A program made the position numbers and the translations under genes. Shown here piece after piece: positions 22,636 through 59,273 of a DNA stretch of 64,000 nucleotides. Below the pieces are notes generated by a model, which had not been told where the DNA came from, searched no databases, and saw only the letters and a list, made by a program, of their open reading frames with translations. Position 1 is the first letter of the stretch, and every line of letters starts with the position of its first letter. The DNA comes from a virus, in IMG/VR virus record IMGVR_UViG_3300044712_000822, positions 1 through 64,000 of that record, one strand, 5' to 3'.

Positions 22636-22971
22636 CTACCTGACCACGATACTTAGGCCGCTTGGGGCGTCGGTAGGGACCGGTGCGCCGGCCTGATTAC
22701 TGGGACCTGACTCCACGCCGCCGAAGATCGCAGTCACCTGATAACAGTAGGCGCCCGGCTGGACAGTGGTATCGACGTAGGTTTTCACTGCCACCGCGGA
22801 AGCAATTTTGGTGAACGTCGGGGATGCGCTACAGAGCCCTGAAGCCCGGTAGACGCTGTAAGTGGTGCCGGCGGGGTTGGAGGTATCCGTCCAGGCCAGT
22901 GTCGCGCTGTGGGTGGATGTCTGCGCCAGGGCGGCGACAGCCAAAAACAAAAGGATGATGATGTGTTTCAT
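22636..22971 (-). CDS. exported single-domain fibronectin type III protein
   Basis: 111 residues from ATG 22971. Signal peptide MKHIIILLFLAVAALAQ with cleavage expected before Gln. The remainder is one FnIII domain (SATLAWTDTSNPAGTTYSVY ... YCYQVTAIFGGVESGPSN) with one Cys pair (GLC...AYC) that can form a disulfide. It probably acts outside the cytoplasm, as a binding module. Shorter than usual phage FnIII proteins. Confidence 0.7.
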   Translation of the reverse strand: MKHIIILLFLAVAALAQTSTHSATLAWTDTSNPAGTTYSVYRASGLCSASPTFTKIASAVAVKTYVDTTVQPGAYCYQVTAIFGGVESGPSNQAGAPVPTDAPSGLSIVVR

Positions 22972-22973
22972 GG

Positions 22974-23270
22974 TTATTCCCAATCAGGCAAGTCCACCGT
23001 TTGCCCTGCTAATTCGTGGTGGCAGTCCGACAGGAACTGGATTCGCCCATCAGTGACAAATGAGTGGCAAACGAAATCCGTCCCCTGGTTGCACAGAAGA
23101 GACGGGGTGAACGTCGGACGATCCATTGAGCCATTCCAGGCCCAGCCGCGCTCTTGGCATTCAATCTCAAAAGGGTGCGCATGCCCGCACCCAGGGCAAT
23201 GGAAGAGATACATCTTCCCACCGCGCGATCCTCGGTTCGAATCACCTAAATAGTGGAGTTTGTTTGCCAT
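22974..23270 (-). CDS. DUF6527-like protein
   Basis: 98 residues. CPGCGHAHPF zinc half-site, then ERGWAWNGS, PTFTPSLLC, CHSFVTDGRIQFLSDC and HHELAGQTVDLPDW, the ordered motifs of a small phage/prophage family (DUF6527). Function unknown; zinc binding expected. No signal peptide, unlike its neighbours on both sides. Confidence 0.65.
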   Translation of the reverse strand: MANKLHYLGDSNRGSRGGKMYLFHCPGCGHAHPFEIECQERGWAWNGSMDRPTFTPSLLCNQGTDFVCHSFVTDGRIQFLSDCHHELAGQTVDLPDWE

Positions 23271-26200
23271 CTAGTTCACCGTCGCTGTCCCGGACACGCG
23301 TGCCGTGCCACACGTGACTCGGTAGTACACAGTGCCGGCGCTGAGGCCGCTGGCTGAGTAGCTGTGTGCTCGCCCCGCGGCCGAGGAGTTGGGATCCGAA
23401 GCATCGTCAGAGGATGCCGGCGCGCCGCTGCCAACCAGGACTTTGCAGGCCGCCGGGCTCGGCCCGATCCAACTCAACACTAGAGTTCCCGTTCCAGGGA
23501 TAGCTCGGAGGTCGGTGATGCGATCCCGCGGCACGAGGGCATACTCAGGCGCCGTCATGCGCAGATTCAGCCCGCTCAAACTGCCCATTACTCGCTCCCA
23601 GGCCCTGCGCCCTGTCCCGGTACTGGTCGAGTATTCCTCCGCCAGCGCGACCGATGACGCGTAGAGATTCGGGTACGAGTGGCCGTAGCCGACGCCGTTC
23701 CACTGGACCCGATCCCACGTCCATGTTGCGCCCGCCGAATGGCTCGCCGCGGTTGTCCCGTACATTCCGCGCCCGCCAGTGCAGACCGTGAGCGTGGACT
23801 GCCCGGCGATGGGTGAGTCAACGGCGGATGAGCAGATATTGATCCACTCGCTTTCTATCCGCACAATGGTCGGCTCAAACCAGTCAATGCCGATATTGGC
23901 GTTGGAGGTACGCTTGTCAATCACGATGGACGTGGCGCTGTTCGTGATGGTATTCACCAGCGCCGCCGTCCGCGGGAACGTAGAGGCCTGCTCTGCCCAC
24001 GTCTGCGGAATGACATTGGTTGCCCCAACAACAAACGGAGCGACGTACCAGTCATAGAAATGTGCGTTTGAGTCGGGGTGAATCGCGGAATTGATGAGGT
24101 ATTTCGAGTATTCCTCGTGCGTGTAGCGGAACAACGGTTGCCCAGTGGTGGCGTGCAGCCATGCACCGGTCTGCGCCGCCCATCCGATTATGTGGGCGAT
24201 GTAGTTCAGCATGAAACTCTGTGTGTAGTTGCCCTCGCTCCAGACCGGCAAGCGCAATGGATTGGACATTCCCTTCATTTGCAGGTGCCTTCCGGAGCAC
24301 CAGGGCGATACGACGGACGTGTAGTGGTAGGAGATGACTACCGTGCTGCCGGCGCCCACTGCCGCCGCTCCGTCGTCCTGGAATACGGTGAATCCACCAG
24401 GGTAGTAATACCAGTCCCTGCCGGTATCCACGCCGCGCACGCCAATCGTCTTTGCCGCTCCGTCAACCGTGATGCCCGTCACCGAATAAAGCGGATGGGC
24501 GACACCCAGCACTTTGGTCGTGCCATTCAGTTTGTAGACAGACCAGCCATTCCAATCATTGGTGCTGCTGGAGGTGTGCGTGACACTATTGCTTCCAAGA
24601 TCACTCCCACGGCAGAAATTGGTGGCGGTGGTCACCCCGGCATTCCCGCCGCTGATGCCATACGCGCCCTCCCACATTTCATCGTTTTTCTCTAAAATCC
24701 GCCTGAAGTACTCGCGTTCCGGCCACGCGGAAGGAGCGAGCAGCGCACCGTAGGCGATCTCCCGTAGACTCCATGCCGAACTGCGCCAGTTCCCCCAATC
24801 CTGCTTCAATCCCCAGTCGCCGCATCGCGTGTGGTAGTAGTAGCAGGCGTAATTTGTGCCGCTGGCCATCCACCCAGACAGTGCCATCTGCCCTCGCAAA
24901 TAGGCGTAGCGCCCGGTCAGGATGTACGGCATCGCGAATGCGGCGGGCATGTGACTGGTATCGAACACCCAGCCCTTCGTGTAGGCAGCGTCAGCGCCTC
25001 TGGCCCCGTCACAAGGGGTAGCCGTGCAGACCGGGACGACGGCGTCTGCTCCGTCGCTACCCTCGCCGCTCTGCGCCGCCTTCCAGTCAGGCCGCGCCGA
25101 AATACTGGCGATGCGCCCGAATGCGGGCGTCGTCTGCGCGGTGTCGAAGTAATACTTCTGGCCGTCAGCGGGAGAATCGCGCACCGTCGAATTGTCGCTC
25201 TCCCATTCCCAGACGGGCAGCGTCATCGCGGCGTCTGCGTTGCCCACTAGGAGCTTATCGAAGATCTCTTTTCGCTGCGCGACGGTGAATTGCGAAGTGT
25301 CGCCCATGGCAAAAATCTGTGTCACATACCAGCGTGGGTGAACACCGATGTCCCCCCTTCCGCCCGTGCCGGGAATGTACTGCTGCCAATTCCCGCAGCG
25401 CCCCGCGCCTGGATCGCAATCCTGGATGTCGGCCGCCCCTTTGTTTGCGTCGAATTGCGCAACGTCTGTAGCGCCACTCCACTGCTGTGAGTAGCTATAG
25501 GGCGGCAGAATGCGAGAATGCACCATGTAGCGGAGGTTCCAGTCCGTCTGGATTGCAGCGGGCGCGCTGCCATCCCAGAAGTAGCGCGAGAAAGCAGACC
25601 GCGCAGGCAGGTCAAACGCGGTCTTGCTGTACACAGATGCCCCGCTGGTTTTCGTCACCGACAAATCGAACACCTGCCGCTGAAGCCGCGTCGTGGCGCC
25701 GTTGATGGCAAGGACCTCCACCTCCACGCCAGCCCAGCCCGCGTAGAACGAGGCAACGAAAACAGGATGGACGCTCTTGTAGGTGTCGCTCGACGGCGCC
25801 TGCCAACTCCCGCCGCTGTACTGCCAACCGAAATCATAGAGCGGGTTCGGGCGGGTAACGTCCTCGAACACCGCCTGCGTCACGAAAGGCCCGCGCAGCC
25901 TATACGTCCACGCACCCGCCGCCAGCATTGTGCGCGCATTTGCAGAATAGGTTATGAAATCAGCCGTGCCCGATAGCACCGCGCCCCAGGCCGCTCCGTT
26001 AAAATTGAGCATCTGCTGCTGAGTCAGTGCGGCGGCCGCGCATGTCGCCAGATTCCCAAGATGACAGGGGTTGCTATCGGGAACGAAATCCACCACTGCT
26101 GAACCGTTGGCCGTGATCGACACGGGGAGGCTGACGAACGCAGCCATCACCGACAGGTCTGGCCAAACGCTCTCAACGTCCACCTGCCAATTGGCGGGGA

Positions 26201-26378
26201 CGCTACCACCCACGCGCGGCTTGGGGTAGTAGCCTGATGGGAACTCCCCTTGCGCGAAGTATCTATGGATCGTGCGCGGTTGGCTCGTCTGGGTGCTACC
26301 AGAGGCGTCGTAGAGACGGACGCCATTGTTGAACTGCGCAATCAATGGAAATGCCAGCAAAATCAACAGATATTTCAT
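23271..26378 (-). CDS. large exported protein, candidate polysaccharide-active enzyme or spike
   Basis: 1035 residues from ATG 26378. Signal peptide MKYLLILLAFPLIAQ. The N-terminal half is beta-rich. Residues about 420-800 are helical and Trp-rich (DWGLKQDWGNWRSSAWSLRE, PEREYFRRILEKNDEMWEGA), recalling alpha/alpha-barrel glycosidases or lyases. The end is a fibronectin type III domain. All 14 mature Cys fall in close pairs (for example CTATPC, CYYYHTRC), suggesting disulfides. A secreted depolymerase is my best guess; no catalytic motif identified. Confidence 0.6.
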   Translation of the reverse strand: MKYLLILLAFPLIAQFNNGVRLYDASGSTQTSQPRTIHRYFAQGEFPSGYYPKPRVGGSVPANWQVDVESVWPDLSVMAAFVSLPVSITANGSAVVDFVPDSNPCHLGNLATCAAAALTQQQMLNFNGAAWGAVLSGTADFITYSANARTMLAAGAWTYRLRGPFVTQAVFEDVTRPNPLYDFGWQYSGGSWQAPSSDTYKSVHPVFVASFYAGWAGVEVEVLAINGATTRLQRQVFDLSVTKTSGASVYSKTAFDLPARSAFSRYFWDGSAPAAIQTDWNLRYMVHSRILPPYSYSQQWSGATDVAQFDANKGAADIQDCDPGAGRCGNWQQYIPGTGGRGDIGVHPRWYVTQIFAMGDTSQFTVAQRKEIFDKLLVGNADAAMTLPVWEWESDNSTVRDSPADGQKYYFDTAQTTPAFGRIASISARPDWKAAQSGEGSDGADAVVPVCTATPCDGARGADAAYTKGWVFDTSHMPAAFAMPYILTGRYAYLRGQMALSGWMASGTNYACYYYHTRCGDWGLKQDWGNWRSSAWSLREIAYGALLAPSAWPEREYFRRILEKNDEMWEGAYGISGGNAGVTTATNFCRGSDLGSNSVTHTSSSTNDWNGWSVYKLNGTTKVLGVAHPLYSVTGITVDGAAKTIGVRGVDTGRDWYYYPGGFTVFQDDGAAAVGAGSTVVISYHYTSVVSPWCSGRHLQMKGMSNPLRLPVWSEGNYTQSFMLNYIAHIIGWAAQTGAWLHATTGQPLFRYTHEEYSKYLINSAIHPDSNAHFYDWYVAPFVVGATNVIPQTWAEQASTFPRTAALVNTITNSATSIVIDKRTSNANIGIDWFEPTIVRIESEWINICSSAVDSPIAGQSTLTVCTGGRGMYGTTAASHSAGATWTWDRVQWNGVGYGHSYPNLYASSVALAEEYSTSTGTGRRAWERVMGSLSGLNLRMTAPEYALVPRDRITDLRAIPGTGTLVLSWIGPSPAACKVLVGSGAPASSDDASDPNSSAAGRAHSYSASGLSAGTVYYRVTCGTARVSGTATVN

Positions 26379-27337: not shown

Positions 27338-27344
27338 AATTCTC

Positions 27345-28760: not shown

Positions 28761-29434
28761 TTGATCCCCGCGAGCACCGCCGACCAAGGCGATGGCACCG
28801 TTGCCGTTTTGTCTCCGCTAGCGCCGCTGGACACGGGCGCGGTGTACCCGCAGGCAATCCCCTCGTTGGCCCCGCCGTTGATTGTTCCACAGGATGTCCA
28901 TCCAGCAGGAATACCAACGGCCCCGCTTCCATCGGTACTGCCAAAATAGAGCAATATATCTGCTGTTCCGGTGGTTGTGATCGACGTAGCGGTTGCCGTT
29001 GTTCCGGTCCCCTTGTTTACAGTCCCGCAGACATCGGGGGTGGAGGCCGCGCCACTCATCTGCACGATCACGCCAGAGGAGTACTGTGCCCCACCGAACG
29101 TAAACGTGTAATTCCCGCCTTCCGATGAAGCGATCTTGTAGTATGTTGCTACAGATTGCTGGCTGGCTGCTTTCGCGGAACAAACCGACCAGCCAGCGGG
29201 GGGCGTCACCGATGTCGCACTTGAGTTCATCGCTATCCCAGCAAAAAGCATATTCCCGTCTACAATGGAACCCGGTGGGGTTAGAACCAAGGTTGTCGAA
29301 TTGGCGGAACCAACCGGGCTGGAGCTGTTGACGAATGCGGGGCCGCCCGCAGCCGCCCGCCGCCCCACCCGCCGCACCGTCATATCCTGCCCTAGTAGGG
29401 TGGGGATAATCGCCAGAAAAATCAGGAACCTCAC
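28757..29434 (-). CDS. exported fibre-like beta-sandwich protein
   Basis: 225 residues. Signal peptide MRFLIFLAIIPTLLGQ. The rest matches a beta-sandwich module of phage and secreted proteins: SIVDGNMLFAGIAMNSSATS, VTPPAGWSVCS, YKIASSEGGNYTFTF, VGIPAGWTSCG. Four Cys that can form two disulfides. ATGA overlap with both neighbours, so it is made together with them. Confidence 0.65.
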   Translation of the reverse strand: MRFLIFLAIIPTLLGQDMTVRRVGRRAAAGGPAFVNSSSPVGSANSTTLVLTPPGSIVDGNMLFAGIAMNSSATSVTPPAGWSVCSAKAASQQSVATYYKIASSEGGNYTFTFGGAQYSSGVIVQMSGAASTPDVCGTVNKGTGTTATATSITTTGTADILLYFGSTDGSGAVGIPAGWTSCGTINGGANEGIACGYTAPVSSGASGDKTATVPSPWSAVLAGIK

Positions 29435-30792
29435 ATTGCCCTCCTCGTTGTAACCTCGACGCCGACCAACGAAACAACGCCAGTGATCGTGTCCGAGGCA
29501 TGGCCCCTATCTCTCATGACCTTGAGGTGCATCAGTTCGCCTGCCGCGCATCCGGTCATTGTGATTCCCGTGATGCTGGCCGTGTTGAGTTGCAACGTCG
29601 TGCCCTTGGCTGCGTCGGTAACTGTATTCGCCGTGTTGTACGCTGCGTCGTTGACCTCGGCGTCGGCGCGGCAAGATGTTGCAACCTGCCAAACTACGTC
29701 TCCAGTGGTGGCCGCCGCTTGCCACAGGAATTTCACGTCAACGTTGCCGGCCCAGTCGTCGGGCAGCATGATGATCTGCTGGAGCGAGTAGGTATTGTCG
29801 CTGTCCGGGAAATCAGCAGTCCCCCTCATCATGGTCGTTTCAGTGGACCCCGCCGCGCACGTTGCTGTAGGGGCGTTGGATGCCAGCGTATCCCACATCA
29901 GCGTGCCCGTCGTGCCAGCGCAGCCAGCGGCGGGTAGCCAGATCTTGGAACTGAGCGTGATGACGTTCCCAGTGCCCTCGGCGTCGATGGTCTTGTTGGT
30001 GAACGTATCGCTGGTTGAGGTTGTCACGGCAGCCGTGCAGGACTCAGCCGCGCCGCTCGCATCCACGCCCAACGGGAACGAGCCAGCCGAGCAGTTGGAG
30101 CCGTTGGCAGCGAGCGCCGTGGCTGTCGCCGCGTTGCCCGTCGTGCTCTGATTCAGCGTCGGCACATCCGCAGCCTGAATTGCCGCCGTGGCGGGAATGC
30201 CGGTGCTCGGGATGTGGGTGACAAACTGATTCGCCGTGCGAGTGGCACTCGGAACGACGGTGGTGGATTTCACGCCATTTTCGTTGATCGCATAGAGCGT
30301 GAGGCTCGTACTGTCGAACCACATGCCCATCGTGCTCGCGGCAGGCGTACTCAGCGCCGCGCCCGTCGTGCCCGTGGCGGCAAACTGGCCAGTGCCGGAG
30401 GTGGAGAGGACTTTCTGCCAGCCGGAAGCCGAATCGCAGAACCAGAGGACTTTTGGCGTGGTATCGGTGCGCAACTGCCACTGCTGGCCAGCGGTGCAGG
30501 CGCCGGAGGGGTCTGCGGTCACAGAGGTGACGGCCATGTTGCCGCTACCTGCCGAAGCCTCATCCGCCCAGGTGTTCGTGCCGGTACACAACCGCCCCTT
30601 GTGAGTCGTGGTGTTGTAGTAGCGCATCCCTTCCGTGCAGGTCCCAGGATCGGAGGACTTCTCCGGAACAGGCCGAGAACTGAGAGCCGCGCTCATGTCG
30701 ATCTTCGTGGCCGCATTCGCGGTGTGGCCGTAGGTTTCAGTCTGCGCCCATGCCGCGGACGCCAGAACCAGGAGAGAAATCAGGTATCTCAT
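29431..30792 (-). CDS. exported modular fibre-like protein with Cys-pair modules
   Basis: 453 residues. Signal peptide MRYLISLLVLASAAWAQ. Contains tail-fibre-type stretches (GTGQFAATGTTGAALS, QAADVPTLNQSTTGNAATAT, DTFTNKTIDAEGTGN) and ten mature Cys in five close pairs, including two copies of a CTxG...C module followed by W. The C-terminal 150 residues form a beta-rich domain. It looks like a fibre that has gained a Sec signal. Confidence 0.65.
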   Translation of the reverse strand: MRYLISLLVLASAAWAQTETYGHTANAATKIDMSAALSSRPVPEKSSDPGTCTEGMRYYNTTTHKGRLCTGTNTWADEASAGSGNMAVTSVTADPSGACTAGQQWQLRTDTTPKVLWFCDSASGWQKVLSTSGTGQFAATGTTGAALSTPAASTMGMWFDSTSLTLYAINENGVKSTTVVPSATRTANQFVTHIPSTGIPATAAIQAADVPTLNQSTTGNAATATALAANGSNCSAGSFPLGVDASGAAESCTAAVTTSTSDTFTNKTIDAEGTGNVITLSSKIWLPAAGCAGTTGTLMWDTLASNAPTATCAAGSTETTMMRGTADFPDSDNTYSLQQIIMLPDDWAGNVDVKFLWQAAATTGDVVWQVATSCRADAEVNDAAYNTANTVTDAAKGTTLQLNTASITGITMTGCAAGELMHLKVMRDRGHASDTITGVVSLVGVEVTTRRAM

Positions 30793-32030
30793 TAGAATGA
30801 CCTCACAATCGTGGCTCGGAACGTTTGGGCGGAAATCGTAGCCGTTCCCGCGATGCGGCAGACCCGCAACGTGACGGTGTTCGCACTGCTGACGTAGGCA
30901 GACCAGAGCAGGCCAGCACCTAGCCCGGTGGGTGCGCCGATCATCACCTCATCGCCGGTTGCCGCGCCGGTGACGGTGATGCTGCCTTCCTCGCAGGAGT
31001 TGGTGAATGTGGACATGCTGAGGGAGGCTGTTCCAGTGATCCGCGTTGGCACGATGGCCGGGTCCATCAGGATCAGCGAGCCACTCGGAGGCCCGCCGAC
31101 GTAGCAGGAGCCCGTGTACGCGCTGCCCGCCGCCGGGTTGATCGTCACATCGCCGCTGCTGTTCGTGGTGTAGGCCACGCCGCTCGCCCAGACGCCATCT
31201 GACGTTCGGCGGCAGCCTAGGAATACCGGAGTCGTCCCTAGTCCGTGCGTGGCCGCTGTGACCGTCCTGGACGTCTCGCCCGCAAATGCGATCAGGTAGG
31301 GCGAGGCGGAGCCCGTGCCCTCACCCGCAGGTCCAGTCGCTCCGGTAGCACCCGTGGCACCGGTCGCCCCGGCAACTCCCTGGATGCCCTGAGAGCCTGT
31401 CGCGCCAGTGGCGCCGGTTGCGCCTGTCGGGCCAGTCGGCCCCGTGGGCCCAGCCGTTCCAGAGCCGCCGCTGCCGCCGCCGCCCGTGGTGGTCCAGCAG
31501 GTGCCCGTCTCGGCAGGCGAGAATCCCACCGTAACCGAGTTCAGACCGAACACGGGAGCAATCGGCGTGATCTCCGTGTCGTCGCTGGCCCTTCGGCATG
31601 TGATCGTGACGGCCTTGGTATTCCAGTTGTGGGTGACGGTCGCACTGGTAGCGGAGGAGAATGACTGTTCAGCCACTGAGCCAACCGGTCCAGTTGGTCC
31701 TGTCGGCCCCGATGGCCCCGTGCTCCCGGTCGCTCCACTGGGCCCCGTCGGGCCCGTTGGCCCTGCCGGTCCAGTTGCACCCGCGGCTCCGGCTGTTCCT
31801 GTTGGTCCTGTCGGACCCGTTGGACCGATGCTGCCGGCGCCGGCGGCGACCCAGGTGTCGGGCGGGACGGCGCAGTTATAGAGGCCGGCGCTGGCTCCGG
31901 TTTTCTGGAAGAGGTCGCCAAGGTTGCACTTCGCCGGGAGCGTTCCCCCTTGGGGGGTCACCCGGCGCGCGCCGCCAAATTGGGCCATCAGCGGCAAGGA
32001 TAAAACCAAAACCGCCAGAACGTGTTTCAT
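30792..32030 (-). CDS. exported collagen-like fibre protein
   Basis: 412 residues. Signal peptide MKHVLAVLVLSLPLMAQ, a Cys-pair module (KCNLGDLFQKTG...LYNC...DTWVAAG), then two Gly-X-Y collagen-like blocks (residues about 68-118 and 195-245, rich in GPTGPTGPTG and GATGATGATG) separated by beta domains, and a beta-rich C-terminus. Eight mature Cys. Collagen-like stalks trimerise in phage fibres; export is suggested by the signal peptide. Confidence 0.7.
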   Translation of the reverse strand: MKHVLAVLVLSLPLMAQFGGARRVTPQGGTLPAKCNLGDLFQKTGASAGLYNCAVPPDTWVAAGAGSIGPTGPTGPTGTAGAAGATGPAGPTGPTGPSGATGSTGPSGPTGPTGPVGSVAEQSFSSATSATVTHNWNTKAVTITCRRASDDTEITPIAPVFGLNSVTVGFSPAETGTCWTTTGGGGSGGSGTAGPTGPTGPTGATGATGATGSQGIQGVAGATGATGATGATGPAGEGTGSASPYLIAFAGETSRTVTAATHGLGTTPVFLGCRRTSDGVWASGVAYTTNSSGDVTINPAAGSAYTGSCYVGGPPSGSLILMDPAIVPTRITGTASLSMSTFTNSCEEGSITVTGAATGDEVMIGAPTGLGAGLLWSAYVSSANTVTLRVCRIAGTATISAQTFRATIVRSF

Positions 32031-32335
32031 GATGTTCTCCTCGCTGCCGTCTGCTGAACGTGGCCGTCCAGCTTCTTCTCAATTTCGTCGACTCTCTCTG
32101 CGATGTTCTCGATCTTGTCGCCCTGGGCGTCCAACTGGGCGCCGACAGTGGCCGCTCTCATGAATGAGCCGTTTACCCATTCGCGCGTTTCCCTCTGCTG
32201 CAGGGCCATCGTGTCCTTGATTGCGAGTGAGAATTTGGCAAACTCGGCGCGGACTACATACATGACGATCCCTCCGAGAACGCCTGTCCCTGTCACGGTA
32301 GCGCCAATGGCTTCAGCAGTCATAGAAAAATCCAT
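32027..32335 (-). CDS. membrane-anchored coiled-coil protein, possible spanin or holin accessory
   Basis: 102 residues. An N-terminal membrane helix (GATVTGTGVLGGIVMYVV) is followed by a charged coiled coil (LDAQGDKIENIAERVDEIEK). This matches an inner-membrane spanin or an accessory lysis protein. It is the last gene of the lysis cassette and overlaps the exported collagen-like gene by ATGA. Confidence 0.5.
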   Translation of the reverse strand: MDFSMTAEAIGATVTGTGVLGGIVMYVVRAEFAKFSLAIKDTMALQQRETREWVNGSFMRAATVGAQLDAQGDKIENIAERVDEIEKKLDGHVQQTAARRTS

Positions 32336-32384
32336 TCGTGTGGCTCCAAGTTAATATTTGGGCGGATGACTGCCGCCCGTTATG

Positions 32385-32678: not shown

Positions 32679-32687
32679 CGTGTCCTT

Positions 32688-33340: not shown

Positions 33341-34020
33341 TACTTCACCACCCTCCAGCCCCAGGCTTCCTTCAGGTGCTTGACTCCCTTGGAGTCGGTG
33401 AAGATATCGCCCACGGCATAGCCGTCGGGCTGGGTCCTCAGTTCATGCTGCGCGGCGCTGATCCCGGAAACGCGCCCCAAGGGGCCTTCGCCCTCGGGGG
33501 TGGGCGCCTGCGTCGACACGGGGGCGGGGGGTGTGGGCGGGATCTCTGCGGCCGGGACCGGACCGGGGGCGGGGCGGGGAACTTCCAGTTCGTCTATCAG
33601 GTCCAGGTCGGACTCTACCGATACGCCGGCGCCGGCGTGGTAGTAGCGGTCGACGATGCCGGCAGCGTTCAATCGGCGCCCGTTGGGCAGGACCACGGAA
33701 TAGGTCAGCTTGTCGGCGTAGTAGATTCCACCTTCGATCCCACGGACAGCCTCAAGGGTGGCGCCGGGAACGAACAATTGGACCAAGCGGAGAGCTTCCT
33801 GCGCGCCGGAGGGGCTCGCGCTCTGTTTCGGGTTGACGTAATGGTTCACTTGCCCGTTCGTCGTGTTGTACACCGCGATGGCGTCAAACAACGCGTAATA
33901 GTCTGGGACGAAGGTGTAATCCGGCTCCGTTCCTTTCGGATGGAAATACGGGTTGTGTGCGGCTGGGCCAGCGTATCCCCAGTCATTGGGGAGGGGTGAG
34001 TTTCTGAGGGCGATATTCAT
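33340..34020 (-). CDS. hypothetical late protein
   Basis: 226 residues. The first 145 are a mixed domain (YALFDAIAVYNTTNGQVNHY, YADKLTYSVVLPNGRRLNAA); then a Pro-rich linker; then a small C-terminal domain (YAVGDIFTDSKGVKHLKEAW). ATGA overlap with the amidase. No family recognised; perhaps part of lysis or virion entry. Confidence 0.5.
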   Translation of the reverse strand: MNIALRNSPLPNDWGYAGPAAHNPYFHPKGTEPDYTFVPDYYALFDAIAVYNTTNGQVNHYVNPKQSASPSGAQEALRLVQLFVPGATLEAVRGIEGGIYYADKLTYSVVLPNGRRLNAAGIVDRYYHAGAGVSVESDLDLIDELEVPRPAPGPVPAAEIPPTPPAPVSTQAPTPEGEGPLGRVSGISAAQHELRTQPDGYAVGDIFTDSKGVKHLKEAWGWRVVK

Positions 34021-34499
34021 TCAGGCAATCCTTTCGACTGGGCCCATGCGCGATAATCCGCATCTCTGGGCCACACGAGAGACGGACATTCGGTTGCCCG
34101 CACCTGACGGTGCAGGAGGATTTTCGTAATCGGGTGCCGCGCCATGATCCAGCGGATGACGGCAATCAGGGTTTCATCCTGTTCTTGGGTGAGCCCTTCC
34201 TTCTCGCCCTGGGGCAATGGGCGATAGGCTTCAATTTCAATCCCGATGGAGGAGTGGTTGATGTCGCGGTTGCCAGCATGCCAGGCAGCATCCTTTTCGT
34301 CGACGCATTGGATAACGGCGCCGCCCCTGGTGATAACGTAGTGCGCGCTGACCTGTGATTTCGCATCCTGGAACCACTTCACCGCGCCCGCTGCCTTGCC
34401 AGACGTGTTGTGCAGCACGATGGCAGAGATCTCTTTTTCGCGCGGCGACCGATTGGGCGACCGCGCGAATGAGATCGCAAAGTGCAGCGCATTATCCAA
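34017..34499 (-). CDS. N-acetylmuramoyl-L-alanine amidase (endolysin)
   Basis: 160 residues from TTG 34499, chosen because it overlaps the upstream stop by 8 nt; an open frame extends further but inside the previous gene. Amidase_2 motifs: AIVLHNTSG (zinc His), SAHYVITRGG, CVDEKDAAWHAG, SSIGIEIEAY, and LLHRQVRATECPS, giving the second His and the Cys zinc ligand. It cleaves peptidoglycan at lysis. Single-domain, T7-lysozyme size. Confidence 0.85.
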   Translation of the reverse strand: MDNALHFAISFARSPNRSPREKEISAIVLHNTSGKAAGAVKWFQDAKSQVSAHYVITRGGAVIQCVDEKDAAWHAGNRDINHSSIGIEIEAYRPLPQGEKEGLTQEQDETLIAVIRWIMARHPITKILLHRQVRATECPSLVWPRDADYRAWAQSKGLPE

Positions 34500-34896
34500 G
34501 GTACGGCCTCGAAACGACGAAGAAACTCCGGTCGGCCGTCTGGACAACCGGCGACGTCCCATCGTGCGAGATGAGTTGGATGAACCGGCCGGCGGCGAAA
34601 TCGCCTCCAACCAGCGTCATGAAGCTGCTCGCCGGGCCGGCAGTGTACTCGACAGGAGCCCCGCCGACATCGTAGACGGGCGCCCATCCAGCGTCGTTGT
34701 AGGCTGGCACGTCGTTGGGATAGGCGAGCCCGCGGCCGTGGTGGACGTTGAGCCTGATCTTGGTCGCTCCCGCATCCCAGGCGGCGGGCATGAAGATGCC
34801 GACCAGCGCCTGCCCGTGGAGGGGGATCGGCTGGCTCACAGACCGGCCAGAAACGAAGCTGGCCGGAATCTCCTGCTGTTGGTAAAACTCGCTCAT
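34492..34896 (-). CDS. hypothetical virion-associated beta protein
   Basis: 134 residues, beta-rich (QPIPLHGQALVGIFMPAAWD, KIRLNVHHGRG, RFIQLISHDGTSPVVQ). It sits between the polyvalent internal protein and the amidase, where podoviruses often carry small virion proteins. ATGA overlap with the upstream gene. No family recognised. Confidence 0.5.
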   Translation of the reverse strand: MSEFYQQQEIPASFVSGRSVSQPIPLHGQALVGIFMPAAWDAGATKIRLNVHHGRGLAYPNDVPAYNDAGWAPVYDVGGAPVEYTAGPASSFMTLVGGDFAAGRFIQLISHDGTSPVVQTADRSFFVVSRPYLG

Positions 34897-42141: not shown

Positions 42142-42143
42142 CG

Positions 42144-43898: not shown

Positions 43899-43907
43899 GA
43901 TGCCTCC

Positions 43908-44873
43908 TTAGACTGGCGGGCTGGTGATGCCCATCGGGATGGTGTGCGTGTGGTTGTCGGCGCCGCCGGGATCTGTCGTCGTGCTGGACCCTGCGTAATA
44001 GTGGGCGTGGTTCCCGGTGGAGAAATAGGCAGCCACCAGCGCGGCCAGCGAGGCGACAGACATGGAAGCGAGGGTGGAACCGTTCCAGTAGAGCACCAGC
44101 CCAGAAGTGAGGCCCGTTCCGGCCACATCCGCCGCCGCGCCCAGGTCGATTTTCGCGGTTTTGAGTTTCTTCGACGCGTCGAGTTTCAGGGGCATCGACG
44201 CGGACAAACCAGACGCGGAGAACTGGGCGTTCCCGGACTCCAGGACAACCGCCTCGCCGGGGCCGCTGTAAACCTCCAGCCGCCCTGGCGTGGCGCGGGT
44301 GTATTTCCCCGTCGCCGGGTCGTAAACCGTGATGCGCCCGCTGCCTGAGCCGTTCGCCACTTCGGCGATGACGCTGGCCTCGGCATCGTTCCACACATAC
44401 AGGCCGCTGTCACCCATCGCCGCCTTGAACCCGCTGACGTCGTTCTTGACCTGGATGCCCATTGTCCCATTGGGGTCGATGTAGTTCCCGAGGGTGGTGG
44501 TGGCGCCATCCTTCTGGACGATGATGATAGCGTTCCGGATGTTCAGCGTACCGGTATTGTCGACGAAGAGGTTCGCGGTGTCAGGGCCAGTACCGCCGAT
44601 GTAGACCTGCGCGAAAAACGCGCCGATGTATTTGTCCTGCGCCCCGATCCAGGCGATGAGGTTACCGTCCTGGTCGGTGACGACAATCGGGTCCTGCGCC
44701 TCTGGCGTGGACTGCAGGGTTTTGTAGATGCGCTCGAAATGCTGCTGGACGAGAGAAAGAGCCTGCGCCGTCTCGGGGCTTACCCTTCTGAATGCGTCTG
44801 CGAGTTGTAGGAGCGATGGGGGTGTCTTCTCATCTTTTGAAAGAAGGGGCTTTATGATGCCCGACTGAATCAC
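43908..44873 (-). CDS. tail fibre or spike candidate with HxH tip
   Basis: 321 residues without signal peptide. Helical N-terminus (ALSLVQQHFERIYKTLQ), then repeated fibre-like beta segments (AQDPIVVTDQDGNLIAWIGA, GSGRITVYDPATGKYTRATP), ending in GNHAHYYAG and DNHTHTIPMG. HxH pairs near the end recall metal-threaded fibre tips such as T4 gp37. Adjacent to the nozzle gene, so likely a virion fibre. Confidence 0.6.
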   Translation of the reverse strand: MIQSGIIKPLLSKDEKTPPSLLQLADAFRRVSPETAQALSLVQQHFERIYKTLQSTPEAQDPIVVTDQDGNLIAWIGAQDKYIGAFFAQVYIGGTGPDTANLFVDNTGTLNIRNAIIIVQKDGATTTLGNYIDPNGTMGIQVKNDVSGFKAAMGDSGLYVWNDAEASVIAEVANGSGSGRITVYDPATGKYTRATPGRLEVYSGPGEAVVLESGNAQFSASGLSASMPLKLDASKKLKTAKIDLGAAADVAGTGLTSGLVLYWNGSTLASMSVASLAALVAAYFSTGNHAHYYAGSSTTTDPGGADNHTHTIPMGITSPPV

Positions 44874-44876
44874 AAT

Positions 44877-46793
44877 CTACCTCCGGGTCAGATGTGCGCT
44901 GTAGTAAACGCGAACTGCTGACAAGAGGAAATAGCCATTCAGCTCTTCCACTCTGATGCGGAGCGATTCCTGCTCCGAGCTCAAAAACCATTGTCGCAGA
45001 GGTTCCTTCCCAGGGGAAGACTCCAATGCGATTGGCAAAGCAGAAACTTGCTTTACCCGTCCCATCCCGTAGGCTGTCAAATACAGAGATCCCGCCCCCT
45101 TCACCCGGAAGTGGGCGCCGTGGAACTGTCTCACCTGCCCCGGCGTCGTCTTCGGCGGGAGGAGTGAGGTTTCAAACTGTGACCGGATAGCCAGGCCGTC
45201 GTCGTTGTACGGCTGCGCGTCTTGCGCGTTCTTCTGGCGGTAGATCTTCGTGCCGCTGGCCTCCCAGACCTCCTGCAGGCTGGTCGTCGGGTTCGTGCCG
45301 ATGCAGCCGGCACCGATGGCCCGGCCGTCGTACCAGGAGTCAGGAGAGAACGCGATCTCTTCGGGGGAGGTGCCGTTCGTGTAGTCGAACGTGAACCGGT
45401 AGTTCGCCTGGGTCGCGCCGTCGAGCGGCACCCACACGCGGACTTTCTGGTTTTTCGCGTCGTCCACCACTACGATTTCAGCGGCCGCGTTCCAGTTGAT
45501 GCGCGCCCACCAGTCTGCTACATAATAGCTGACCGGCTTGTCCGGATACGCTCCGCCCTGGAACAGGTAGAGCCCGCCCGTGTGCGCCACCCAGGCGTAA
45601 CCCTGCGAGGGATTCGCGGACACGCACCGCGGCGCCAGAACGCCGATCCGGCCGTCTACCAGTTGCATCGTCGGCCACTGAACCGGAACCAGCCCGTTGT
45701 CGGAGGTGTAGTAGGTCCAGTTCGGGCCCAGGATATAGAGCCCGTTCGGCATCATGAACGCCGTGACCATCCGCCGGAATCCGGGCAGGGAAAGAACATG
45801 CTGATCGGCGGTGATGTGCTGCGGCTTCTCCGGCTCGCTCACCCACATTTGGGAGAGGCCGTTGAGTTCCGCGATGTACCCGATCCGGTTACCGATTTCC
45901 ACCACCACGCTGGGATTGAAGGGGCCATTGCCCGTGATGTCCTGGCTGAACAGAGAGAGGTTCTCTGTGACATCCGTACCCGTGGCCTCCAGGTCTGCGT
46001 CGGAGATATCAGCCAACGCGCCCACCACAAACGAGGACCCGCCGGGGACGGCCGCGCCCAGGCTGGGGACCAAATACCATCGGTTCAGATTCTTGGTGGT
46101 GGTGATGACTGGGTAAACCTTCGTCACCTCAACCGGCCAGGTTGTCGTCGGCGCAATCGAGAACACGAGTTGCTTGTCGCCGGCGGCGGTAAAATCGACA
46201 ATCCCTGAGATTGTGCCCTGATACCCGGTCCTGGTTTCGGCGATGAAGCCAAGCCGGTGGAGCCCCGCCGTGATGTTCCCCGTGGAGAGTTCGGACGGCG
46301 TGATTGTCGCCGCCACACGCCCCAGGAATGCGCGGTCCACCTCCAGCGCCGAGCCGTTGACGTTCACGATGCGGCAGGGGCCAGCGCCGCGGCCGCTGGA
46401 ATTCTGACAGGCGATATAAACCCGGTTGCCGCCAGACACGATGCTGGCCGACACCATGGCCGCCTGAGTGAACAGCGTATACGGCTCAACCCCGCTGGGC
46501 GAGCCGATGCTGAAATAGCATTTCGCCACTCCGGCAGCGTTCACGTAGAACAGGTAATTGCCCGCGAGGCTGACAGCATCGGGGGTTTTCACCCAATTGA
46601 AGAGGCTCCGTACGGCCTCGTTAGGGTTCAGCAGTTGACCGAATCCGAAACGAGTCCGTACGGCTCCCGGCTGGTATTCCACATTCTCGGCAAACCGGCT
46701 CCCCTCCATCGGCACGTCGGACTCCTCCATGGCTGTCCAGGGCCCACGGAAAGTCGTGATGTCGACGTAAGGGTAGCCGGAGATCAGCGACAT
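44877..46793 (-). CDS. tail nozzle-like protein (beta-propeller)
   Basis: 638 residues. N-terminal RFAENVEYQPGAVRTRFGFG is typical of podovirus tail nozzle/tubular-B-like proteins, followed by repeated beta blades (RVYIACQN, NRIGYIAELNGLSQMWVSEP, MVTAFMMPNGLYILGPNW, WVAHTGGLYLFQGGAY). It would form the distal tail tube through which DNA leaves. Sits between adaptor-type genes and the fibre. Confidence 0.65.
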   Translation of the reverse strand: MSLISGYPYVDITTFRGPWTAMEESDVPMEGSRFAENVEYQPGAVRTRFGFGQLLNPNEAVRSLFNWVKTPDAVSLAGNYLFYVNAAGVAKCYFSIGSPSGVEPYTLFTQAAMVSASIVSGGNRVYIACQNSSGRGAGPCRIVNVNGSALEVDRAFLGRVAATITPSELSTGNITAGLHRLGFIAETRTGYQGTISGIVDFTAAGDKQLVFSIAPTTTWPVEVTKVYPVITTTKNLNRWYLVPSLGAAVPGGSSFVVGALADISDADLEATGTDVTENLSLFSQDITGNGPFNPSVVVEIGNRIGYIAELNGLSQMWVSEPEKPQHITADQHVLSLPGFRRMVTAFMMPNGLYILGPNWTYYTSDNGLVPVQWPTMQLVDGRIGVLAPRCVSANPSQGYAWVAHTGGLYLFQGGAYPDKPVSYYVADWWARINWNAAAEIVVVDDAKNQKVRVWVPLDGATQANYRFTFDYTNGTSPEEIAFSPDSWYDGRAIGAGCIGTNPTTSLQEVWEASGTKIYRQKNAQDAQPYNDDGLAIRSQFETSLLPPKTTPGQVRQFHGAHFRVKGAGSLYLTAYGMGRVKQVSALPIALESSPGKEPLRQWFLSSEQESLRIRVEELNGYFLLSAVRVYYSAHLTRR

Positions 46794-46798
46794 GACGC

Positions 46799-47323: not shown

Positions 47324-47324
47324 G

Positions 47325-48014: not shown

Positions 48015-48016
48015 GG

Positions 48017-49275: not shown

Positions 49276-49308
49276 GCAAGTCCTTTGTTTTCAGTCAAAA
49301 AATAACCG

Positions 49309-50628: not shown

Positions 50629-50631
50629 TTT

Positions 50632-51852: not shown

Positions 51853-51859
51853 GGGGCTC

Positions 51860-54737: not shown

Positions 54738-54740
54738 TAG

Positions 54741-54769
54741 TAGACCCCGTTCCAAGTGTATGCTATGGT
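54741..54769 (+). promoter_or_regulatory. promoter for the HNH gene, leaderless type
   Basis: TAGACC (54741-54746), 17-bp spacer, TATGGT (54764-54769), six bases to ATG 54776. Each hexamer matches consensus at four positions. No Shine-Dalgarno. The endonuclease gene would thus carry its own promoter against the direction of the late genes. Confidence 0.5.
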
Positions 54770-54775
54770 TTTCTC

Positions 54776-55651
54776 ATGAGCCTTTGTGAATGCGGATGTG
54801 GTGGGCAAACCAACAACGGTCGACGGTTTATCAAGCCGCACCAAGTCAAGCTGATGCAGGAAAGAAATACCGGAAGACAATACACGAGAGAGCATCTTGA
54901 GAAACTTTGGGCTGGTCGGCGCGCAAACCCGCCAACCAAAAAACAACGGACCACGGAGACTATAAGCTGCGCGTGTGGATGCGGCGGCAGTCTTACCACC
55001 CCCGATGACAGGGGAAGACAGAGAAAATTTATACAGAATCATCAGACAAAGACGCTTGTCAGCCTCAGAGAAAGGCCGTACCCGCCATCTCCAGTTAAAG
55101 GCAGAAAAGCCAGCGAAGAGACAAGACGCAAGCTGAGCGAATCGCACAAGGGGAAGCAGTCCCAGTCCAAAGGCATAAAGAGGGGCCCATCTCCACTCAA
55201 GGGGATTAGCCGCGGATTTCGCCACTCCCTCGAAACGAAGAAGAAGATATCCGAAGCCAACAAGGGAGACAAAAGCCACCTGTGGAGAGGCGGCTCTCTC
55301 CCAGCCAGAGATGAGAGGACAAAAACGGTGGAATGGAAGCATCTGCGCCGCATAGTATATGAGAGAGACAAGTGGTGTTGCGTAGTATGCAGAGTCCATT
55401 GCAGAAATAGCGGAGGCAAGAACAAGACAATACAATGCCATCATATAGTGCCAGTGAGGTACGGAGGTAGCGACGACATCAGCAACCTCGCCTCTGTTTG
55501 CGTTAGTTGCCACAAAAGGCAGGAGTCGCTTTACGGTAAACCGTCCTACTTTTGGGGCAGCTACCACAGGGTCCTCCAGGAAAAAGAATCCCCCGCGTCT
55601 TTCCCGCAGACCTGCACAGAATCCTTCACTCCGGCCCCGCCGGCCAAATAG
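54776..55651 (+). CDS. HNH homing endonuclease with NUMOD3 repeats
   Basis: 291 residues. Two Cys clusters (CECGCGG, CACGCGG), then three NUMOD3-like DNA-binding repeats (KASEETRRKLSESHKGK, KGIKRGPSPLKG, HSLETKKKISEANKGD), and the HNH domain: CCVVCRVHC, CHHIVPVRYGGSDDISNLAS, CVSCHKRQE. Free-standing homing endonucleases cut related genomes lacking the gene. It lies on the opposite strand inside the late operon and its end overlaps the neighbouring gene by 91 nt. Confidence 0.88.
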   Translation: MSLCECGCGGQTNNGRRFIKPHQVKLMQERNTGRQYTREHLEKLWAGRRANPPTKKQRTTETISCACGCGGSLTTPDDRGRQRKFIQNHQTKTLVSLRERPYPPSPVKGRKASEETRRKLSESHKGKQSQSKGIKRGPSPLKGISRGFRHSLETKKKISEANKGDKSHLWRGGSLPARDERTKTVEWKHLRRIVYERDKWCCVVCRVHCRNSGGKNKTIQCHHIVPVRYGGSDDISNLASVCVSCHKRQESLYGKPSYFWGSYHRVLQEKESPASFPQTCTESFTPAPPAK

Positions 55652-57339
55652 TTAAACGTTCCTCGTGTCGTCGCGTCACACGTCGGCGCCGTTGCAGAGG
55701 AAAGCTGGGGCTGGTTGGCAAAAACAACGCGTGTCCCCGCGGCATTGAACACCGACCCGAGAACAATCTGGTCTGAAGAACTCGCCCCGATAAGAATCAT
55801 GTCTGAGGAGTTGGCGGCATTCCTCGTCCCAATGAACGTATTGTTATGAATCCTCAGCGGCATGTACCCAGCGGACACGGCCGCCGCATTGGAGAAATCA
55901 ATACCTACGCCATAGTCGATGATAGGAGTCCCCACGAAGTTGATACCGTACTGCTGAGGCTTGGCGAAGCTGAACTTCATCGTGTTCTTCACCTTGTGGT
56001 TCCAGATCCCGCCGAACAGGTCAACGGCGTTGATAATCCCAGGGGTTGCGTATGTCTGATCTCCCCCTGTGGTTTCGATCCAGTTCCATTGAGTGATATG
56101 GTTCCACGATTCGGACTGGAGATAATTCCTCCACTCGTATAGCCCGGTCGCCGTGAGCAAATACCCAAACCCGTTGTCCCATGCGCAGCCAAGCGCCGAA
56201 GCATAGCAGGCAGGAGTCCCCAACTCCAGCGACGTTGAGGCGACGGTATCGATCGCGTAGGACCCGTTTGCGATCGTGACTGGAATAGTGAACGTGTTCG
56301 AGCCGGTGGAGGTCGCCGGGAAATTCCCGCGCAGCGTGGTGTTCGCGCTGGTGATATAAACGCCTTGCTGCGAACGGAGATTGTGCGCCGTCGGCGTTGT
56401 TACCGTGCACACGTTCGAGGAGCAACTAGTGGACGACGTAGACAAGCTGTTGAGATCGCCGATTGTTGTGTCTGCAAAAGATGAGCTATCCAGGAATTGA
56501 GCGTATATGCCATGGTAGGGGGGCCTTGCATCAAACGAGATGAAGCCCTTGCCTGCCTTGATGGAACAGACGTCCTTGTTGCTGGTTCCCAGTATCATCC
56601 CGCCGCCGGCTGTGCCGCCCCAGATGACATAATTATCCAGCATGATCTGGCCGGAGCCGTCGCCGCACCTGGGCGTCGTGGTGATACCTGAACCTTCAAC
56701 CACCAGGCCATAGCCATTGGTGTGGTTGGCGATGGTGAAATAGTTCGCGACGAAGTTGTACGTGTCATACAGCCAAAGCCCGGTAGCGGCCCGGTTGTTG
56801 GCGTCGAAGGTGATTTTCTCCACGCTGGAGTTGAGTTGCGTGTACCCGCCGCTGCTGGAAAACTTAACGATAAATCCGCCGGCTGTTGCGCCAGAGGGAT
56901 ACTTCAACAGCGTCGAGCCCGTGTCGGAAGACCATGGAGTGCGGCTTCCCTGCCCGACCAAGTGAATATTGTTCTTCGTGATAACCAAGTTTGCAATCAT
57001 GGCCGTGCCAGCGGGGAACATGATCGTTCCGCCTGTCGACGGCAGCGCGCTGATGCAGGAAGACAGGGCCGAAGTGTCATCGGTTGAGCCATTGACAGCA
57101 AGCCCGCAATCCGTAGTGGCCCGCAGGAAGGGAATCGAAAAGGACCCAGGCGCAGCATAGTCTGTGCCGGAAACGGCTGCAGCCAAATGCCCGCTCCCGT
57201 CGATCTTCGTGATCGAGCCAGACGATGGCAATGACCCTCCGTTGATCGTTGTCAGTGTGGGCTTGTTCTTGATCTGGGTGTTGTAGTCAACCTGCTGGGC
57301 AGGGAGCAAAAGCGGCAGGAGAATCAGTAGTTTCTTCAT
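55561..57339 (-). CDS. exported pectate-lyase-like beta-helix spike
   Basis: 592 residues. Signal peptide MKKLLILLPLLLPAQQ, then a fibre-type linker (SGHLAAAVSGTDYAAPGSFS), a beta-helix of the pectate-lyase superfamily (NGSTDDTSALSSCISALPST, GTIMFPAGTAMIANLVITKN, IHLVGQGSRTPW) and a C-terminal Cys-pair module (PTCDATTRGTFNYLAGG...VCGKD...WRTLW). Ten mature Cys. Its 3' end overlaps the HNH gene. Candidate exported depolymerase. Confidence 0.7.
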   Translation of the reverse strand: MKKLLILLPLLLPAQQVDYNTQIKNKPTLTTINGGSLPSSGSITKIDGSGHLAAAVSGTDYAAPGSFSIPFLRATTDCGLAVNGSTDDTSALSSCISALPSTGGTIMFPAGTAMIANLVITKNNIHLVGQGSRTPWSSDTGSTLLKYPSGATAGGFIVKFSSSGGYTQLNSSVEKITFDANNRAATGLWLYDTYNFVANYFTIANHTNGYGLVVEGSGITTTPRCGDGSGQIMLDNYVIWGGTAGGGMILGTSNKDVCSIKAGKGFISFDARPPYHGIYAQFLDSSSFADTTIGDLNSLSTSSTSCSSNVCTVTTPTAHNLRSQQGVYITSANTTLRGNFPATSTGSNTFTIPVTIANGSYAIDTVASTSLELGTPACYASALGCAWDNGFGYLLTATGLYEWRNYLQSESWNHITQWNWIETTGGDQTYATPGIINAVDLFGGIWNHKVKNTMKFSFAKPQQYGINFVGTPIIDYGVGIDFSNAAAVSAGYMPLRIHNNTFIGTRNAANSSDMILIGASSSDQIVLGSVFNAAGTRVVFANQPQLSSATAPTCDATTRGTFNYLAGGAGVKDSVQVCGKDAGDSFSWRTLW

Positions 57340-59273
57340 CAGTAAATCGCCCTCACGTCGGCCCCGCTCTCCGGCGCCGCGGTAAATGTCACATTGGTCC
57401 CTGACCGGGTGTACCCCAGGCCTTCAAACATCATCACTCCATTCCAGAGGACAACCTTCGGTGTCTGGCTGAAGGCGAACGTGGTGGTGACTCCATTCGG
57501 CGACGTCGACGACGACACCAGCCTCATGTTCGGCGCCGTGCCGCATGTGATCGAACCATCCGTGTTCACCGATGAAACGAAATCACCCGTGCTGCAGGTC
57601 TGCGACAGCACTCCGCCCTTCACTGTCGAACTGGGGGCCGGCAGCCGGGCGCCGTTCAGCGTGCCGCTGGTGATATTCGTAGCGTTTGTGGTGTCCGTAG
57701 TGGCGCTGGGGGCGAATGACGGCCACGTGGATGGCGCTCCGGTGATGATCGGCTGTTTCGTCGCGTCGACGACCGTGATGTTTGCCGATCCGTCGAACAG
57801 GACCCCGTTGATTGTGCGCGCTGTCTGCAGCACGGTTGCGGATCCAGAGTTCCCAGTGATGGTGACGGCCAGGGTGCCACTCAGCGCGTCGGAGCCCCCT
57901 TGAATATGCGTACTCGCGTGGGCGGTCGGAGCCATGGATGTGGGCGCACCGCTAAGTTGCGAGTACCCGACCTGCGTACAGGTAGGAGATCCGGTTGTCG
58001 TTGCGGTTGCGTACTGGCCGGCGGTGCAGGCCCCGACTCCGGAGTAGGTTCCAGAGGCCTGTTTCGTAGCCAGTCCTGTATCGACATAGGTTTTGACGGC
58101 ATTCTGTGTGGGGTACAGGGCGTTGCTTGCGCCCAGGGCTGTGTTGGTGGACTTGTTCGCCACATTCTCAGCGGTGAACCCTAGCGTCGGCTCATATGGC
58201 AGGGCCGGGATATCGGCCGCGACCAGAGCCCGAAGGGTGGGGGCGCCAGAAACTCCATTCGGCGTGGCATACACGCGATTAGCCAGACCGGTTCCGATTG
58301 CCGCCTGGTAATCCGTGCCAGCAACTGCGGCCGAGAACCCGCCCGTGCCGTTTCCTTTCAGCAGATCCGCGCCAGATGTGGCTGGTGCATAGTCGGTGCC
58401 AGCGGCCGCCGAAGAAAAGCCTCCGGCTCCATTCCCTTTGAGAAGGGCGGAGCCGGAGGTTGCCGGTGCATAGTCAGTGCCGCTCGCTGCCGCCGAAAAG
58501 CCACCTGTACCGTTGCCTTTGAGAATCGCTGTACCCGAAGTCTGAGGCGCGTAGGAGAGCGCCGGGATGTCGCCTGCAACCAGAAGCCGCCACGCCGGAG
58601 CGCCGCCGCCGCTCGCCGGGCCGGCGAACACGTAGTTCTGAAGCGTCGAAGCCAGGCCAATGCCGCCCCGGGAGACAGCCAGCGTACCGGTCCAGCCGAG
58701 GGAGTGCGTTGTGCCCGTCGACGTCAGGGTCACGTTGGTGTCGTTCACGAACGTCTGGACCGGATCAGTCAAGCCGTTGAGGGAGGTAATGCCGGAACCG
58801 CCTGCCCCGGTCTGATCGGACCCGCAACTGAAGACGTGAGTAGTTGAGTTGTAGAGGAGTTTATCCGTGGTGCCATTGCTGCAACTTGGGAGGACCGACA
58901 GGCTGAACGCGCTTCCGTCGGCGATGGGGACGCCATTCGCAGTGACGCCCCCAAGGGCCGAACGGGCGCGGGCATCGGTGAAGTAGAGGCGAGTGCCTTC
59001 AGCGATATCGGTAGTCGAAGAGGGGATGGTGGGGAATGTGGCGAGGGATAAGTCTCCACGGAGATACTGGCTGGTGGACCCGGTAACAATGGTGCCCTGT
59101 TTTCCAGACAAGGCGTTATTCAGGTCCGTCTGGGCGGAGAGTGTCCCGGTGATTCCACCCCATGTCGCAGATCCCCCCCCACCACCGCCGCCAGTGACAC
59201 GGTTGGGACCGTCCACCTTGGTTTGCGCGGCGAGACCAAAACAAAAAACTACGACGAGTAGCCACCTCACCAT
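57339..59273 (-). CDS. exported repetitive tail-fibre-like protein
   Basis: 644 residues. Signal peptide MVRWLLVVVFCFGLAAQ, polyglycine, then fibre repeats: DLNNALSGKQGT, TRLYFTDARARSALGGV, and at least four tandem copies of a 22-residue unit (LLKGNGxGGFSxAxxGTDYA). C-terminal module SPNGVTTTFAFSQTPKVVLW and NGVMMFEGLGYTRSGTNVTF. Six mature Cys in pairs. The plan is a normal phage fibre with a Sec signal in front. Confidence 0.72.
   Translation of the reverse strand: MVRWLLVVVFCFGLAAQTKVDGPNRVTGGGGGGGSATWGGITGTLSAQTDLNNALSGKQGTIVTGSTSQYLRGDLSLATFPTIPSSTTDIAEGTRLYFTDARARSALGGVTANGVPIADGSAFSLSVLPSCSNGTTDKLLYNSTTHVFSCGSDQTGAGGSGITSLNGLTDPVQTFVNDTNVTLTSTGTTHSLGWTGTLAVSRGGIGLASTLQNYVFAGPASGGGAPAWRLLVAGDIPALSYAPQTSGTAILKGNGTGGFSAAASGTDYAPATSGSALLKGNGAGGFSSAAAGTDYAPATSGADLLKGNGTGGFSAAVAGTDYQAAIGTGLANRVYATPNGVSGAPTLRALVAADIPALPYEPTLGFTAENVANKSTNTALGASNALYPTQNAVKTYVDTGLATKQASGTYSGVGACTAGQYATATTTGSPTCTQVGYSQLSGAPTSMAPTAHASTHIQGGSDALSGTLAVTITGNSGSATVLQTARTINGVLFDGSANITVVDATKQPIITGAPSTWPSFAPSATTDTTNATNITSGTLNGARLPAPSSTVKGGVLSQTCSTGDFVSSVNTDGSITCGTAPNMRLVSSSTSPNGVTTTFAFSQTPKVVLWNGVMMFEGLGYTRSGTNVTFTAAPESGADVRAIY

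Follow-up and report, generated by a model that had tools for sequence, protein, structure and literature searches.

We lean towards reading nine late proteins encoded by a soil phage as a Sec-exported, disulfide-bonded set of adhesin/depolymerase-like proteins that would be made late in infection and act outside the cell around lysis. Their genes, named hereafter by their lower coordinate, lie on a stretch of 64,000 nucleotides (the window) taken from positions 1 to 64,000 of the IMG/VR record IMGVR_UViG_3300044712_000822, itself 66,309 bases long. The original prediction, made from the letters of this stretch, had singled out nine open reading frames (ORFs), all of which are indeed present, on the minus strand (table 1), seven of them after the lysis genes and two between the terminase and portal genes. 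It had proposed three roles for their products, namely attack of the extracellular matrix, masking of receptors, or addition of fibres to virions after export. The sequences give good support to the view that the products are exported, form disulfides and belong to the fibre or depolymerase kind: this rests on the anatomy of their signals, on the parity of their cysteines and the gain of cysteines in the signal-bearing branch of a shared domain, on conservation both in relatives and in unrelated phages, and on how rarely control phages have such genes. The sequences do not discriminate among the three roles.

Signal peptides were called with a rule-based scorer calibrated on 50 kb of Escherichia coli K-12, in which none of 24 cytosolic genes and most exported genes were called; N-terminal membrane anchors are also called, so that signal and anchor are not separable by the score. 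At a threshold of at least 4.0, all nine late products were positive as Sec/signal peptidase I-type proteins, in line with the prediction, and no other late gene of the window reached that level. The claim that the remaining late proteins lack signals likewise held, for among the 18 that were scored, the only match was a weak one (score 3.5) to the small ORF 54417, which looks false, with a hydrophobic stretch of 7 residues and KKK soon after. Even with this ORF counted, the contrast between 9/9 and 1/18 is marked (Fisher P = 2e-6). The nine signals are short (14–17 amino acids), with K or R in the n-region, a hydrophobic h-region and small residues at −3/−1, and Q stands at +1 of the predicted cut in seven products. 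No second hydrophobic or membrane-like segment occurs in any of the nine, the remainder of each being soluble, and lipoprotein (signal peptidase II) signals could be ruled out, the lipobox [LVI][ASTVI][GAS]C being found in none. In three genes, the first start codon lies upstream of the signal, which begins at an internal ATG (22971, 26378, and 28760), a correction that could speak for chance hydrophobic N-termini or wrongly chosen starts. Such an explanation is hardly credible, as it is contradicted by the Fisher test and by the conservation of the signals, which are kept in orthologues and present in unrelated phages (see below). Moreover, ATG 26378 and ATG 28760 each overlap the stop of the preceding gene, and start codons in the cluster mostly overlap or directly abut upstream stops, so the signal-bearing starts look like coupled starts.

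The same kind of gene set was found in related phages, where the prediction had proposed to look for it, and beyond them. In the relative G001 (3300043177_000018), whose terminase and nozzle are 55% and 57% identical to those of the window, a signal-bearing homologue of 55561 likewise lies between terminase and portal; its signal is different, but the beginning of the mature chain, QQVD[YW]..QIKNKP, is conserved. Four further signal-bearing proteins lie at the end of the late region. A second relative, G014, has a homologous nozzle (E 2e-128) and the gene order of the window: nozzle, adjacent signal-less long protein, Cys-free long proteins, small hydrophobic gene with one segment, and signal-bearing cluster. 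On contig L092, 29431, 26375 and 23271 have signal-bearing counterparts that are arranged as in the window, and weaker counterparts of 28757 and 27345 lie between them. Homologues of 23271 in further viral contigs each have an N-terminal signal (three of the contigs considered here, L085, L086 and L091, appear to represent the same phage). The 23271 counterpart of L092 (L092:6001-6318) is itself only 105 amino acids long, the signal and about 35 mature residues being joined to the C-terminal end, and its sequence reads as an internal deletion. A homologous nozzle was absent from 17 of the 18 searched records with such a set, several of which are fragments, which implies that the set occurs independently of any single virion module; terminase-like matches were found in 9 of 23 viral records searched, so that at least those nine are tailed phages. 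The signal-bearing late set is thus not peculiar to the window: it also occurs in relatives with a homologous nozzle, in soil phages with unrelated virion proteins, and in the cultured phages Tunturi_1 and Tunturi_2.

These last two are podoviruses of the acidobacterium Tunturiibacter psychrotolerans (PP887698 and PP885685; PMC11924767) that, like the window, have signal-bearing late genes in the virion module, five in number (gp12–14, 16, and 17), annotated as tail fiber, pectin lyase or tail spike, and virion structural protein; the paper that describes them (PMC11924767) says nothing about signal peptides. The mature products of Tunturi_2 hold 20, 10, 20, 1, and 34 cysteines, an even number in the four large ones. 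The late proteins of Tunturi_2 have no blastp match to those of the window, one marginal match excepted. No comparable set was seen in Tunturi_3, which infects the same host strain, nor in the parts read of Tunturi_4 and 5, and the case of Tunturi_3 indicates that the set is not imposed by the host.

Cysteines offer a second line of evidence. The predicted mature counts (2, 14, 6, 3, 4, 10, 8, 10, and 6) agreed exactly with our recount, and cysteine makes up 1.53% of the mature signal-bearing proteins of the window versus 0.58% of its other late proteins (P 0.0015), the corresponding figures being 1.65% versus 0.53% in G001 and 2.07% versus 0.48% in Tunturi_2; in Tunturi_3, which has no such set, fibre and structural proteins contain 0.36%. 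Mature counts are even in 17 of 19 signal-bearing proteins of the window, G001 and Tunturi_2 (P 4e-4) and in 34/39 from 22 other viral loci (P 1e-6), compared with 54 of 103 signal-less ORFs with at least three cysteines, the P values being somewhat optimistic because homologues are not fully independent. If this even parity gives strong support to the pairing that had been proposed, the supposed closeness of the pairs fared less well: the median distance to the nearest neighbour is 17 residues versus 24.5 in shuffles (P = 0.07), and tight spacing was dropped as evidence. The C-terminal domain of 29431 (beta-sandwich model with a predicted local distance difference test [pLDDT] score of 78; nearest predicted viral structures, phage and collagen-like proteins) has 3–4 conserved cysteines in three signal-bearing proteins (window, G001, and L041) and none in three signal-less phage homologues. 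The motif C..G..ffdtdAtaGqN.Y.CtatntW belongs to the signal-bearing set, and its counterpart in gp085 of Cellulophaga phage phi38:1 is Cys-free and signal-less. Among the 28 viral loci found with this motif as a query, the ORF with the cysteine motif bears a signal in 21 of the 22 scorable loci that contain it versus 0/5 signal-less homologues (P 7e-5), the sole exception being a signal-less ORF of L030 (8081-11272) with an uncertain N-terminus, and the four loci whose match is confined to the Cys-free repeat are signal-less, with 1–2 cysteines. Signal-bearing soluble ORFs account for 16% in the motif phages as opposed to 2.7% in control phages. Both the parity of the cysteines and their gain where a signal is present suggest an oxidising compartment, and we infer that the proteins would be exported and form disulfides there.

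Short N-terminal docking peptides occur in some phage receptor-binding proteins, and the scorer has no power to separate a signal from a membrane anchor; on this basis, the hydrophobic N-termini could be uncut peptides that dock fibres to the virion or to a membrane. We regard this as quite improbable, given that a positive n-region, a short h-region and a small-residue cut site are found in each of the nine, that the cysteines point to an oxidising compartment, and that in most pairs the signal varies more than the mature sequence that follows. When diverged pairs are pooled, signals are 27% identical and the first 50 mature residues 40%, a biased figure, as some pairs are chance alignments and pairs were picked by mature identity. 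Single orthologue pairs are the better evidence and mostly go the same way: 8/15 signal versus 32/40 mature residues for 29431 and L092, 5/13 versus 29/40 for 23271 and L085, 2/13 versus 25/40 for 23271 and L089, and, for gp17 of Tunturi_1 and Tunturi_2, three changes in 22 signal residues and none in 50 mature ones. Faster divergence of the signal was not seen in two pairs (23271 with L030 and with L090). Greater divergence in the signal than in the mature N-terminus, as in most of these orthologue pairs, is usually how cleaved signals behave, which is consistent with cleavage here.

As regards what the proteins might do, the domains assigned in the original prediction were recovered by Pfam for the beta-helix of 27345, the pectate-lyase-like 55561 and the collagen of 30792; FnIII (22636) and LamG (26375) were not recovered at threshold. 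Recognised polysaccharide lyase/depolymerase folds are limited to 27345 (Beta_helix) and 55561 (Pect-lyase_RHGA_epim), and the set further includes fibre or tip modules (collagen, phage tail repeat, tail phrogs, and a jelly-roll-type tip). Compared by eye, the nine mature N-termini are unlike one another, and no common virion-docking N-terminus was seen; the match of 57339 to a tail profile starts at residue 19 of the protein and at position 112 of the profile, so that an N-terminal part of that tail family would be missing. The C-termini of 23271 and 27345 (23271-23310 and 27345-27384, minus strand) share RVSG[TN]ATV[NR], possibly a sorting or trimer-end motif, and somewhat similar endings occur in signal-bearing proteins of L029 and L030.

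Homologues also exist in bacterial chromosomes. A scan of 84,980 species genomes for the cysteine motif gave two loci only, both in Acidobacteriota, and among 396 Acidobacteriota genomes, three encode such proteins, all of them signal-bearing. No phage genes were recognised in the flanks read of these three loci, and two are adjoined by glycosyltransferase-type genes, as judged by sequence resemblance only. One of the chromosomes (L068:2397-10717) has two tandem large proteins (1171 and 1258 amino acids) and the motif protein, with glycosyltransferase-type genes adjoining; the 1258-residue neighbour is signal-bearing and is 33% identical over nearly its whole length to a signal-bearing phage protein of contig L032. 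A search of the 396 genomes for prophage relatives with terminase profile A1 gave no match, with no positive control.

In the course of events that we favour, the nine proteins would be expressed from late genes, and each signal would direct its chain through the inner membrane before being cut, mostly before Q. Once in the periplasm, an oxidising compartment, the mature chains would fold and pair their even-numbered cysteines as disulfides. There they would remain, unless a host system took them across the outer membrane, up to lysis by holin and amidase. From then on, as soluble or surface-bound proteins, they could bind or loosen host exopolysaccharide and thereby help progeny to exit and spread, with the matrix as target and the time and site of action being what we infer from gene content and placement. 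The virion would have a fibre of its own (43908): a signal-less HxH fibre beside the nozzle is conserved in the window and G001, with a candidate only in G014, which supports a signal-less virion fibre in this lineage. The virion thus may not depend on the set for receptor binding, and action apart from the virion is favoured, later attachment being the less likely course.

Such attachment would amount to a distinct assembly route for tailed phages, in which Sec exports the receptor-binding fibres, their oxidation and folding take place in the periplasm, and virions receive them at lysis at the earliest. We hold this to be a tentative alternative, with appreciable points on its side: the products carry tail-fibre modules (collagen, phage tail repeat, and tail phrogs), their genes sit among virion and lysis genes, and attachment to particles in vitro is possible for the P22 tailspike and T4 long fibres. 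In Tunturi_2, moreover, the signal-bearing genes stand where fibre genes would be expected, and no signal-less alternative is evident, so that loading onto virions after export stays the main rival. Against it stand the nine mature N-termini, which by eye differ and show no common docking domain behind the signals, the conserved signal-less fibre of the window and G001, and the signal-bearing homologues in chromosomal regions where no phage genes were recognised. Alternatively, the proteins could be exported binders, rather than enzymes, that mask receptors or surface glycans against superinfection or against progeny sticking to debris. Llp of T5 is a receptor-blocking phage lipoprotein, and several members of the set are adhesin-like without enzyme domains (collagen and jelly-roll); nonetheless, we consider masking unlikely, since late placement linked to lysis genes comes late for superinfection exclusion, the beta-helix and pectate-lyase-like members suggest degradation, and the number and size of the proteins far exceed the needs of known blockers.

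Several observations weigh against extracellular action as the function of the set. Its stalk-and-tip build (collagen, fibre repeats, and jelly-roll tip) makes most sense for a protein anchored to something, possibly a virion; Tunturi_1 and Tunturi_2 have no obvious signal-less fibre beyond tail-tube-type proteins, and their signal-bearing proteins could be receptor-binding proteins. The AlphaFold2 model of 23271 was unusable (pLDDT 27), and profile searches of PDB sequences gave no significant match for this protein. Finally, chromosomal copies are rare (3/396 genomes) and may be former phage genes, and the host is only indirectly indicated, as probably an acidobacterium, because the chromosomal loci with the cysteine motif were found in Acidobacteriota.

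Table 1. Signal-bearing late genes and other features of the window (aa, amino acids; Cys, cysteines of the mature part)
Feature	Position	Strand	Remarks
Signal-bearing protein, 111 aa, FnIII-like by eye	22636..22971	-	Signal MKHIIILLFLAVAALA then Q (22924-22971); 2 Cys; homologue in L027
Signal-bearing protein, 1035 aa, large enzyme-like	23271..26378	-	Signal MKYLLILLAFPLIA then Q (26337-26378); 14 Cys
Signal-bearing protein, 320 aa	26375..27337	-	Signal MKRTLAILFCIATLALA then G (27287-27337); 6 Cys
Signal-bearing protein, 471 aa, right-handed beta-helix	27345..28760	-	Signal MRPALALIYLSSFALGA then D (28710-28760); 3 Cys
Signal-bearing protein, 225 aa	28757..29434	-	Signal MRFLIFLAIIPTLLG then Q (29390-29434, GTG start); 4 Cys
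Signal-bearing protein, 453 aa, fibre, jelly-roll-like C-terminal domain	29431..30792	-	Signal MRYLISLLVLASAAWA then Q (30745-30792); 10 Cys
Signal-bearing protein, 412 aa, collagen-like	30792..32030	-	Signal MKHVLAVLVLSLPLMA then Q (31983-32030); 8 Cys
Holin-like small protein	32027..32335	-	Adjoins the signal-bearing cluster on its upstream side; single hydrophobic segment seen by eye; no family match
Amidase endolysin	34017..34610	-	Amidase_2
HxH fibre, candidate virion fibre	43908..44873	-	Signal-less, Cys-free; homologue in G001
Nozzle-like protein	44877..46793	-	Signal-less; 57% identical in G001; also in G014
Signal-bearing protein, 592 aa, pectate-lyase-like	55561..57339	-	Signal MKKLLILLPLLLPA then Q (57298-57339); 10 Cys; G001 homologue in the same place
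Signal-bearing protein, 644 aa, tail-fibre repeats	57339..59273	-	Signal MVRWLLVVVFCFGLAA then Q (59226-59273); 6 Cys
Terminase large subunit	59834..61819	-	Signal-less

Elsewhere in the window, a DUF6527 protein without a signal (PF20137; 22974-23270, minus strand) lies inside the signal-bearing cluster, and an ISL3-family transposase (PF01610, 3.5e-52; 19029-20351, plus strand) lies inside the phage genome, with early genes on one side and the late region on the other. A late protein of 1987 amino acids (34893-40856, minus strand), probably an internal virion protein, has a 2'-5' RNA-ligase-like (2H phosphoesterase) stretch at residues 616-733 and a ParB-like stretch at 761-888, and could carry enzymes into the host together with the DNA. 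No known defence proteins were found, nor close DNA relatives among phage isolates.

Tail fibres and tailspikes of tailed phages normally stay in the cytoplasm, lack signals and dock to the virion by their N-terminus, and tail fibres are the textbook case of cytoplasmic mounting on the virion. The window proteins share with such fibres and tailspike depolymerases the collagen-like stalks, fibre repeats, beta-helices and jelly-roll-type tips, and differ from them by a signal peptide in place of the docking N-terminus. Carbohydrate-active auxiliary genes of soil viruses are similarly phage-coded, polysaccharide-directed and possibly secreted; they are, however, known as single metabolic genes, whereas the window has up to nine fibre-type proteins in its late region. 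In filamentous phages, pIII and pVIII are virion proteins made with signal peptides, with disulfides in pIII; the signals are a feature that they share with the set, although they are assembled at the membrane during extrusion. Exported morons (Lom, Bor, and Llp) and signal-bearing lysis proteins also use the host Sec route, but are small, single, and often lipoproteins or lysis regulators, as opposed to sets of fibres. Examples from these groups include some of the auxiliary genes of soil viruses reviewed in PMC11924767 and, among signal-bearing lysis proteins, RI of T4 (PMC8385771). The literature searched contained neither exported tail fibres of tailed phages nor a tailed-phage equivalent of pIII/pVIII. 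The recurrence of signal-bearing fibre-type sets in several lineages, including two cultured phages, would then reflect either an extracellular adhesin/depolymerase programme or fibres that are finished outside the cytoplasm, and either outcome would alter the annotation of “tail fibre” genes in soil phages and their use in host prediction.

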